Assembly: GCF_900106845.1 (NCBI RefSeq)
Contig: NZ_LT629850.1
Location: 364,747 to 428,746, forward strand
Origin: Romboutsia timonensis
GTDB lineage: Bacteria > Bacillota > Clostridia > Peptostreptococcales > Peptostreptococcaceae
DNA: 64,000 nucleotides
Direction: 5' to 3'
The position numbers and the translations under genes are program-made. Position 1 is the stretch's first letter. Each line of letters starts with the position of its first letter. This document shows, piece by piece, positions 57,605 to 60,320 of this stretch. The notes below the pieces were generated by a model. That model worked only from the letters and a program-made list of their open reading frames with translations. It made no database searches and was not told the origin of the DNA.

Positions 57605-57629
57605 TTTGTAAGATGTAAGAGGAGGTTAT
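57578..57629 (+). promoter_or_regulatory. Hairpin covering the spoIIM ribosome-binding site
   Basis: Thirteen bases (57578-57590) pair perfectly with 57617-57629. The right arm holds the whole GAGGAGG ribosome site and the first two bases of the ATG. RNA that reads through from the Nudix gene would hide the site; RNA starting near 57611 would lack the left arm and stay open. Confidence 0.65.
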
Positions 57630-58242
57630 GAATTTGAGAGGAACATATAAGAAAAGTTATTTTAGAGAAATAAATAAACAATTAATAGTTATTGGACTTA
57701 TATTTTTAACAGCAGTAGTAATTGGTACATATTTAAATAAAATGTGGCCAGATTATCAAGGTAACATAGTAAATAGCATTAATCCTATTGTAGAGTATTA
57801 TAGCTCAAAAATATCGATAAAAAATATAGTGCTAGCTAATTTAAAGTCTGATATATCCTTTATGATGTATATTTCTTTATCAACTTTATTTGTAGTAACA
57901 TTTCCAATAACGTTGATATTATTTATAGTAAAAGGGATATCTATGGGCTATACTATAAATAGTGTTATATTAGCTATGAAATTAAAAAGTATAAAGTTTA
58001 TTCTTATAACGACATTTAAAAATTTAATTATTATATTAGGTACCATTATACTTATTTTGATTTCAATTAATTATATAAAAGAAATGGTACTTGAGTTTAA
58101 GAAAAGTAGAAATAGAAGCAAGATGATTTTTTTATTTTCAAGATATATATTAAACTCAATAATTGTACTAGCTATAACTATTGGTTTACAAGTTTTATTA
58201 AACACTTTAATTATTAGTATTATTAAGTTCCTAGTCAGATAA
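57628..58242 (+). CDS. spoIIM: Stage II sporulation protein M
   Basis: SpoIIM is a membrane part of the SpoIID-SpoIIM-SpoIIP complex that drives engulfment by peptidoglycan remodelling. The protein has about five membrane segments, with the family-typical start RGTYKKSYFREINKQLIVIGLIFLTAVVIGTYL and a VTFPITLILFIVKGISMGYTI segment. The start is ATG at 57628, or TTG at 57634, which is better spaced from GGAGG (8 bases). It has 204 residues. It lies next to the xerD homologue as in Bacillus. Confidence 0.88.
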   Translation: MNLRGTYKKSYFREINKQLIVIGLIFLTAVVIGTYLNKMWPDYQGNIVNSINPIVEYYSSKISIKNIVLANLKSDISFMMYISLSTLFVVTFPITLILFIVKGISMGYTINSVILAMKLKSIKFILITTFKNLIIILGTIILILISINYIKEMVLEFKKSRNRSKMIFLFSRYILNSIIVLAITIGLQVLLNTLIISIIKFLVR

Positions 58243-58253
58243 AGGAGTTTACT

Positions 58254-59129
58254 ATGGAAGTTGTGAAGAAATATATAAACTATATAAAAGATAAAAAGAA
58301 ATTATCAAACAATACGGTATTATCTTATTATACAGATATAAAAAAGTATATGGATTATTTAAAATCCATAAATTTAGAAGTAAGTGATGTAGTAGAAAAT
58401 GATATAATAGGGTATATAATAAATCTAGAAAAGGATAGTGTATCAGTAGCCACAGTATCTAGAATGATATCATCTATTAAATCTTTTCATGATTATTTAT
58501 TTTTAAATCACATAACAGATAATAATCCAGCAAAGACTATAAAAAAGCCTAAAGTTGAAAAGCATGAAGTAGATATATTAACAGAAAAAGAAATAGAAGC
58601 ATTATTAAATTTTCCTAAGTTAAATACACCTAAGTTGATAAGAGATAAAGCTATATTCGAGGTATTATATGGAACAGGAATAAAGGTTTCAGAACTAGTT
58701 GATATGGATATTGAAGATGTAGATTTAGAATTAGATTATATATATTGTAATATTGCTAAAAATAAAAGAGTTATACCTCTTTCAGATACAACTAAGGTTT
58801 ACTTAGAAAAATATATAAAAGAAGCAAGACCTAAAATAACTGAAGATACAGAAAATGCTCTATTTGTAAATTCATTAGGGCAAAGGTTTACACGACAGGG
58901 ACTTTGGAAGCTTATAAAGAAATATGCAAGTATTGCTAATATAAATAAAAATATTAATCCTAGTATGCTTAGACACTCATTTGCTATTCATTTGCTAAAT
59001 GAAGGAGCAAATATAGCTGTAGTTAGCAAAATATTAGGAAATGCAAATTTGTCTAGTTTACAGGCATATTTAAATCATATAAATAAAAATATGAGAAGAG
59101 AAATAAAAGAAAAACATCCTAGAAAATAA
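58254..59129 (+). CDS. xerD: XerD-like tyrosine recombinase with degenerate active site
   Basis: By length (291), domains (N-terminal SAM-like 1-85, catalytic 105-285) and position before deoB this is XerD. XerC/D resolve chromosome dimers at dif. The catalytic set is not intact: Arg-I is Lys144 (GTGIKVSEL), His-II is Ser237 (NPSMLRHSF), His-III is Asn263 (ILGNANLSS). Arg-II (Arg240) and nucleophile Tyr272 remain, at exact XerD spacing. The hairpin with the catalytic Lys is about two residues short. The frame is intact, so a non-catalytic or altered role is possible. Confidence 0.85.
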   Translation: MEVVKKYINYIKDKKKLSNNTVLSYYTDIKKYMDYLKSINLEVSDVVENDIIGYIINLEKDSVSVATVSRMISSIKSFHDYLFLNHITDNNPAKTIKKPKVEKHEVDILTEKEIEALLNFPKLNTPKLIRDKAIFEVLYGTGIKVSELVDMDIEDVDLELDYIYCNIAKNKRVIPLSDTTKVYLEKYIKEARPKITEDTENALFVNSLGQRFTRQGLWKLIKKYASIANINKNINPSMLRHSFAIHLLNEGANIAVVSKILGNANLSSLQAYLNHINKNMRREIKEKHPRK

Positions 59130-59147: not shown

Positions 59148-60320
59148 ATGAACAGAATTATATGGATAGTAATTGATAGTGTTGGAGTAGGTGCATTACC
59201 TGATGCTAAGGCATTTGGTGATGAAGGTGTAAACACATTAGGTCATATAGTTAAAGAATTTAACGATATAAAAATACCTAATATGGTAAAACTTGGATTA
59301 GGAAACATAGATGGAATTGATTACATAAAAAATGTAGATTCTCCAATAGGTTCTTTTGGTAGATGTAATGAAGTATCTCAAGGAAAAGACACTACTACTG
59401 GACATTGGGAGATGACAGGATTATTAGTAGATACACCATTTAAAACTTTTGAAAATGGATTCCCAAAAGAAATAATAGATGAGTTTGAAAGAAGAACAGG
59501 AAGAAAAGTAGTAGCTAATAAGCCAGCATCAGGAACTGCAATATTAGATGAATTTGGAGAACATCAAATGAAAACTGGTGATGTAATAGTTTATACTTCA
59601 GCAGATAGTGTGTTCCAAATAGCAGCTCATGAAGATATAATTCCTTTAGAAGAATTATATGATATGTGTAAAATAGCTAGAGAAATAATGATGGGAGAAT
59701 ATGCTGTAGCTAGAGTTATAGCAAGACCATATGTAGGACCATGCAAAGGACAATTTGAAAGAACTTCAAATAGAAGAGATTATTCATTAAATCCTTTTGA
59801 TAAAACAGTTCTTGATAATATAAAGGAAAATGGTCTGGATGTAATAGCTGTTGGTAAAATAGAAGACATATTTAATGGACAAGGGATAACTGAAGCTATA
59901 CACACTAAAGATAATATGGATGGTGTAGATCAAACTATAAACTATATTAAAAAAGATAATAAAGGATTAATATTTACTAACCTTGTTGATTTTGATTCAA
60001 AATATGGTCATAGAAGAAATATAAAGGGATATAAAGAGGCTTTAGAAGAGTTTGATGCTAGAATACCTGAGATAATAGAATCTATGAATGAAAAAGATAT
60101 ACTTATAATAAATGCAGACCATGGTAATGATCCAGCATATAAAGGAACAGATCATACTAGAGAATATATACCTTTACTAGTGTATGGTAAAGATATAAAA
60201 GAAGGAATAAATCTAGGAACGAGAAAAAGTTTTGCAGATATAGGAGCAACTGTTGCCGATATATTAAATGTTTCTAAAACTAAAAATGGTACAAGTTTTA
60301 AAGATGAAGTAATGAAGTAA
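59148..60320 (+). CDS. deoB: Phosphopentomutase
   Basis: DeoB interconverts (deoxy)ribose 1- and 5-phosphate. The metal-binding motifs DSVGVGALPDA, KDTTTGHWEMTG and NADHGNDPAYKGTDHTRE are intact. It has 390 residues. AAGGAGG lies before the ATG. It begins the nucleoside-salvage set deoB-punA-pdp, which uses the products of the two phosphorylases. Confidence 0.96.
   Translation: MNRIIWIVIDSVGVGALPDAKAFGDEGVNTLGHIVKEFNDIKIPNMVKLGLGNIDGIDYIKNVDSPIGSFGRCNEVSQGKDTTTGHWEMTGLLVDTPFKTFENGFPKEIIDEFERRTGRKVVANKPASGTAILDEFGEHQMKTGDVIVYTSADSVFQIAAHEDIIPLEELYDMCKIAREIMMGEYAVARVIARPYVGPCKGQFERTSNRRDYSLNPFDKTVLDNIKENGLDVIAVGKIEDIFNGQGITEAIHTKDNMDGVDQTINYIKKDNKGLIFTNLVDFDSKYGHRRNIKGYKEALEEFDARIPEIIESMNEKDILIINADHGNDPAYKGTDHTREYIPLLVYGKDIKEGINLGTRKSFADIGATVADILNVSKTKNGTSFKDEVMK

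Follow-up and report, generated by a model that had tools for sequence, protein, structure and literature searches.

XerD of Escherichia coli and Bacillus subtilis is a two-domain tyrosine recombinase encoded between spoIIM and deoB, with a DNA-recognition helix, a C-terminal HPR motif that is thought to contact the neighbouring subunit, and the catalytic residues R-K-H-R-H-Y. In the arrangement associated with the family model TIGR02225, it has an XerC partner and acts at a single dif site with one XerC and one XerD arm. In streptococci, where a single Xer recombinase is present, a degenerate XerD-like protein called XerDL (NF002685) is found. A second role of XerD is the removal of SMC complexes from DNA; Karaboja is said to have reported in 2021 that unloading by B. 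subtilis XerD needs neither a catalytic residue, nor XerC, nor dif, and we know of no other function of XerD that is independent of catalysis. Unloading by B. subtilis XerD is sequence-specific and takes place at the terminus (PMC12322038, PMC10945525, PMC8357415), with several sites in the terminus region and both jobs carried out by one protein (PMC12322038, PMC10945525). Other bacteria rely on one large recombinase and a palindrome of its own, which lies at the terminus and usually beside the gene: XerS/difSL in streptococci and XerH/difH in epsilon-proteobacteria (PMC5357621). Here, we describe a XerD ortholog from Romboutsia timonensis that, with a probability of roughly 0.6, is no longer a recombinase and has been kept as a sequence-specific binder of the terminus, where it most likely unloads SMC, while a different, lexA-linked enzyme resolves chromosome dimers.

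The gene lies in a stretch of 64,000 nucleotides of R. timonensis DNA (NZ_LT629850.1, positions 364,747 to 428,746), referred to here as the window (Table 1); a named relative with 92% identity likewise points to Romboutsia. Its product finds its best NCBIfam match in XerD (TIGR02225) and its best PDB sequence match in E. coli XerD (1a0p; phmmer, E 9e-44), an alignment that pairs R148, H244, R247, H270 and Y279 of the E. coli protein with K144, S237, R240, N263 and Y272. Its score stays under the curated TIGR02225 cut-off and the catalytic R-K-H-R-H-Y set is broken at R-I, H-II and H-III. On the evidence of its best-scoring family and its conserved spoIIM-like and deoB neighbours, it is nevertheless a true XerD ortholog, nearer to XerD than to XerDL (56.4 bits against a cut-off of 178), and like the E. 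coli and B. subtilis proteins it has both domains at full length, the recognition helix and the HPR at its C-terminus, and is encoded at the orthologous location. A preliminary description of the window had reported an intact frame of 291 residues with Lys144, Ser237, Arg240, Asn263 and Tyr272, which the phmmer comparison reproduced; its short Lys beta-hairpin was likewise borne out by the alignment to E. coli XerD, as was the spoIIM-xerD-deoB order, the upstream gene being spoIIM-like. The shortened hairpin is the one between beta2 and beta3; most orthologs have K169 there in the pattern xKxxR, an ambiguous counterpart of E. coli K172. No linkage of scpA or scpB to xerD was seen in the 20 kb downstream. 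Three genes upstream of xerD, the window encodes a DUF3866 protein of unknown function (window:55973-57070, 472 bits).

Table 1. Features at the xerD locus (positions in the window) and at recombinase loci elsewhere in the same genome (G000, contig C5)
Feature	Position	Strand	Remark
spoIIM-like gene, upstream of xerD	57628..58242	+	TIGR02831, 32.5 bits, below cut-off of 100.2
xerD ortholog, 291 aa, degenerate active site	58254..59129	+	below TIGR02225 cut-off, 281.8 vs 329.6 bits
Lys144 codon (Arg148, R-I, in E. coli XerD)	58683..58685	+	K in most of Peptostreptococcaceae
Lys169 codon, shortened beta2-beta3 hairpin	58758..58760	+	retained in family core but missing from deep branches G005, G021, G026
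TRQGLW, presumed DNA-recognition helix	58890..58907	+	TRQG(L/I)W in 35/35 family orthologs
Ser237 codon (His244, H-II, in E. coli XerD)	58962..58964	+	
Arg240 codon (Arg247, R-II)	58971..58973	+	invariant
Asn263 codon (His270, H-III)	59040..59042	+	N in every family ortholog
Tyr272 codon (Tyr279, nucleophile)	59067..59069	+	invariant
deoB, phosphopentomutase, downstream of xerD	59148..60320	+	
P0003, third conserved tyrosine recombinase relative, beside uppP	G000:C5:540860-541846 (L004:1075-2061)		
34-bp palindrome, dif-like site	G000:C5:1290702-1290735		replichore junction
P0002, tyrosine recombinase, 384 aa, beside lexA	G000:C5:1291193-1292344		outside window
dif-like site and P0002 together	G000:C5:1290702-1292344 (L202:6703-8348)		outside window

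The predicted structure has the tyrosine recombinase fold (AlphaFold2, mean pLDDT 88, pTM 0.64), and XerA, XerD and XerH are among its Foldseek matches. Its two domains, each modelled with confidence, are placed unlike those of apo XerD and XerA (rmsd 13 A, at the pTM of 0.64), and the model fits DNA-bound XerH and the Tn1549 integrase better; no argument about the active site is drawn from it.

Orthologs were collected by whole-genome and contig searches and aligned together, 35 of them coming from Peptostreptococcaceae, where they are 47-95% identical. Residue 263 is N, 240 is R and 272 is Y in all 35, and residue 237 varies among S, T, N and R without ever being H, so that the replacements first noted in a single sequence are, as had been claimed, no alignment artefact. 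Most of the family has K at residue 144, with R in four genomes (G012, G016, G018, G035); two of the three changes are thus family-wide and the third nearly so. Close relatives with R-K-H-R-H-Y would have refuted the preliminary description, and none of the 35 orthologs has this set. The XerD of the order's other families reads R-(H/Q)-R-H-Y; three genomes carry K at R-I, and the hairpin Lys is gone from several, so the active site started to erode outside Peptostreptococcaceae and eroded further inside. When the 35 family sequences are set against 25 mostly canonical XerD sequences, the positions shared by both groups include R214, Q215 and W218 in the presumed recognition helix and the C-terminal H288-P289-R290, and the catalytic positions are among those that are altered. 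The C-terminal HPR is present in nearly all family orthologs.

The gene is under strong purifying selection, with a dN/dS between species of 0.08-0.16, about 0.09, similar to that of two other conserved recombinase genes, and we take it to be functional on that account. Slow decay of a dispensable gene would fit the loss of XerD from at least seven genomes of the order (G007, G027, G048, G055, G058, G059 and G060, some of them incomplete), all of which retain the lexA-linked recombinase. However, xerD is intact in every Peptostreptococcaceae genome except those of genus g5, at the identities and dN/dS given above, which makes decay highly improbable and upholds the earlier argument against it.

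The same conservation bears on a recombinase of altered chemistry, in which Asn263 and Ser/Thr237 would support slow or regulated transfer, perhaps at 28-bp terminus sites or only with a partner. Arg240, Tyr272 and Asn263 are invariant, and most family members still have a Lys in the hairpin. Some active tyrosine recombinases deviate from the consensus, as IntDOT does and as do those of the SSV1 type (R..KxxR..Y). A purely structural role would not require Tyr272 and Asn263 to be invariant; their invariance leaves room for some residual chemistry and is the residue-level evidence that counts against our main reading. Set against this, both His positions are lost as well, and the change of R-I to Lys is the very one used as a catalytic-mutant control in Xer proteins (R213K in XerH; PMC5241119). 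Altered chemistry, one of three readings put forward in the preliminary description, therefore keeps a place on account of its invariant residues, and we consider it unlikely.

If XerD has given up recombination, another enzyme would be expected to resolve dimers, and other Xer-type proteins and a dif-like site, for which the preliminary description had suggested a search, were indeed found. The Romboutsia genome encodes five PF00589 proteins, two of which resemble mobile-element integrases in architecture; in contrast to E. coli and B. subtilis, no XerC partner was found among the five. One of them, the lexA-linked P0002, is a single-copy protein in 59 of the 61 genomes of the order; across 148 sampled genomes of the class, members of the order are its sole carriers. 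Its active site is canonical (R, H, R, H, Y plus the hairpin Lys in 43/43 aligned loci), and its best family is XerS (NF003462; 144.3 bits, under the curated cut-off of 267).

Upstream of P0002, an imperfect 34-bp palindrome, AACTATTCTTTAAATGTATATTTAGGGAATAGTT, recurs. Searching the 61 genomes for it with up to 3 mismatches returned matches in 47, one copy in 46 of them and two in G013; the reversed pattern, used as a control, gave 0. The sign of the GC skew changes at or close to this site in several genomes (G000, G001, G002, G020 and others): about 1-6 kb beyond P0002 in G000 and at the site itself in G002. Where site and gene lie apart (by 11 kb in G007 and 57 kb in G049), the switch coincides with the site, and in G019 it is less sharp, within about 40 kb. 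A half-site of the palindrome is repeated about 70-105 bp upstream of the P0002 start in many genomes, and in Romboutsia both arms are present at this place, set further apart by a longer spacer, as would be expected if P0002 controls its own promoter; because of these half-sites, P0002 is predicted to recognise the arms of the palindrome. At L202:7089-7134, about 60 bp ahead of the P0002 start, the dif arms form a second inverted repeat whose spacer measures 17 nt; it is probably an autoregulatory operator.

A canonical active site and a unique palindrome at the replichore junction are the marks of single-recombinase Xer/dif systems, and judging from sequence, P0002 and its palindrome apparently form an undescribed one, present in nearly all genomes of the order. 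Like XerS and XerH, P0002 is a single large recombinase with its own palindrome, usually next to the gene and at the terminus; unlike them, it is 384 aa long and lexA-linked, scores under the XerS cut-off and has a 34-bp site with different arms. No paper containing the 34-bp core or treating C. difficile dimer resolution turned up in a literature search that lacked most subscription journals, and the papers on C. difficile recombinases held no XerD or dif data on this question. A likely dimer-resolution recombinase and its likely dif site can be named for this order, which includes gut and pathogenic clostridia and whose XerD carries that annotation and is unlikely to do that job. In five genomes (G008, G017, G024, G028, G036), a further XerD-like recombinase, about 340-370 aa long, is encoded 3-8 kb from P0002, perhaps an element integrated at dif.

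The presence of a second recombinase also brings in the proposal that the degenerate protein is a non-catalytic partner, which assembles with and activates P0002 or P0003. The HPR kept in nearly all orthologs would suit such an assembly, and P0003, an equally unusual protein with L/K/R/W/Y at the R/H/R/H/Y positions, is found throughout the family core under purifying selection (dN/dS 0.04-0.16). However, several lineages without XerD keep both P0002 and the 34-bp palindrome, which argues against XerD as an obligatory activator; the arms of the P0002 dif (AACTATTC..TAAAT) are unlike the XerD half-site; and P0003 is absent from G005, G018 and G021, all of which have a degenerate XerD. The activator reading of the preliminary description thus holds for the existence of a second recombinase and fails for obligatory activation, and we regard a partner role as distinctly unlikely. 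In G008, G017 and G024, P0003 is encoded roughly 5-15 kb from the dif-like site.

Further indications of what XerD does come from its putative binding sites. The right half of B. subtilis dif (ACTTCCTAGAATATATATTATGTAAACT) binds XerD, and its exact XerD half-site is ATTATGTAAACT. Eleven patterns derived from the XerD arm or from dif were first tried on individual stretches; the B. subtilis half-site was then searched genome-wide, in 14 complete or nearly complete genomes, for which the prior trial of patterns brings in some selection, and subsequently in 29 further, previously unexamined ones. The dif-like site served as reference, its position in G011, G014, G034 and G035 being taken from P0002 or its upstream motif. 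The half-site occurs a few times per genome, and 28 of its 82 occurrences in family genomes fall no more than 15 kb from the dif-like site, against an expected 0.76 (20 against 0.52 when one genome per genus is counted); none of the 45 occurrences of the reversed control is near. Among the 23 family genomes with any match, 17 have one within this distance. Since P values assume independent occurrences and the genomes are related, we give weight instead to how large the excess is and to its replication in the second set alone (16/42). An unbiased k-mer comparison of terminus and control in G002 gave nothing clear.

With a weaker, inverted copy to its left, the half-site makes up a near-palindrome of 28 bp, as long as dif itself; the right half of its consensus, AGTTTACTATAATTAAATTATGTAAACT, is exactly the XerD half of dif in B. 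subtilis. The left arm, which lay outside the selection, matches the inverted right arm at 6.1 of 12 positions, against 4.3 +/- 0.3 in shuffles and 4.1 in distant matches. Between genera, the flanks are 0.35-0.38 identical, near background, and the 16 bases to the left of the half-site 0.55. Five of the eight positions checked are intergenic. Exact half-sites are lacking in the family members G024, G025, G026 (a deep branch) and G028 and are distant in G008; a profile finds matches near the dif-like site in G035, G008 and G024, as variants in the last two, and weaker ones in G037 and G046, outside Peptostreptococcaceae. In the XerD-less G007, there is no exact half-site, and the profile gives nothing above background near the dif-like site. 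Nor does the exact half-site lie near dif in the order's other families, whose XerD retains the majority of its catalytic residues.

Romboutsia XerD thus retains its recognition helix and a set of putative terminus sites, and the residues for recombination are changed. These sites are symmetric and occur in several copies, in contrast to E. coli and B. subtilis, which have one dif composed of an XerC and an XerD arm; as with the B. subtilis unloader, they have the same half-site sequence and several of them lie in the terminus region (PMC12322038, PMC10945525). Several close sites, inverted and direct, would be a hazard on a chromosome with an active recombinase, which is a further point against altered chemistry: an active XerD would risk deleting or inverting terminus DNA, and loss of catalysis may have been harmless or even useful. 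The DNA-binding reading of the preliminary description is therefore the best supported of its three, with an invariant recognition helix and half-sites clustered at the terminus. This clustering tells where XerD would act, not what it does, and the protein might bind there for another purpose, such as anchoring the terminus, handling replication forks or controlling transcription; as SMC unloading is the only catalysis-independent function of XerD known to us, we find such a purpose very doubtful.

For terminus unloading without recombination, we infer the following scheme, in which binding of XerD to the 28-bp sites, the lack of cleavage by XerD, SMC unloading and the role of P0002 are predictions, built on computed results for the substitutions and their conservation, the second recombinase, its dif-like site at the skew switch and the clustered half-sites. 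SMC complexes loaded near the origin would travel to the terminus, where XerD, bound to the 28-bp near-palindromes around the replichore junction, would remove them by analogy with B. subtilis XerD. Chromosome dimers would be resolved by P0002 at the 34-bp palindrome, at the replichore junction; with this enzyme and its dif-like site in place, catalysis by XerD would be dispensable. Both jobs fall to one protein in B. subtilis (PMC12322038, PMC10945525), whereas in Romboutsia unloading is proposed and catalysis is apparently gone. The stronger form of this reading, to which we give even odds, is a natural separation of function in which XerD is, throughout the family, solely a dedicated SMC unloader of the terminus with its own 28-bp sites, recombination having been ceded to P0002 and its unrelated site. 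If true, evolution has separated the two roles of XerD and selected the terminus role on its own, and nature would supply a catalysis-free XerD, with sequence-defined sites, for the study of SMC removal. Against the main reading, exact half-sites are lacking or distant in the five family members named above and are not near dif in the order's other families, and lineages without XerD get by without it. G018 and G021 have a degenerate XerD and neither P0002 nor the dif-like site, and in G047 (1.8 Mb), where P0002 and the dif-like site are also absent, a XerD with R/Q/R/H/Y is the only PF00589 protein.

Altered active sites also occur in XerD-like proteins elsewhere, namely in Ammoniphilus (L048, L052), Lachnospiraceae (L086, L093) and SAR324 and deltaproteobacterial MAG sequences (L107, L109, L110), where R-I is K and the His positions hold Y, N, R or F, a pattern which suggests that catalysis has been lost repeatedly among XerD-like proteins of other lineages.
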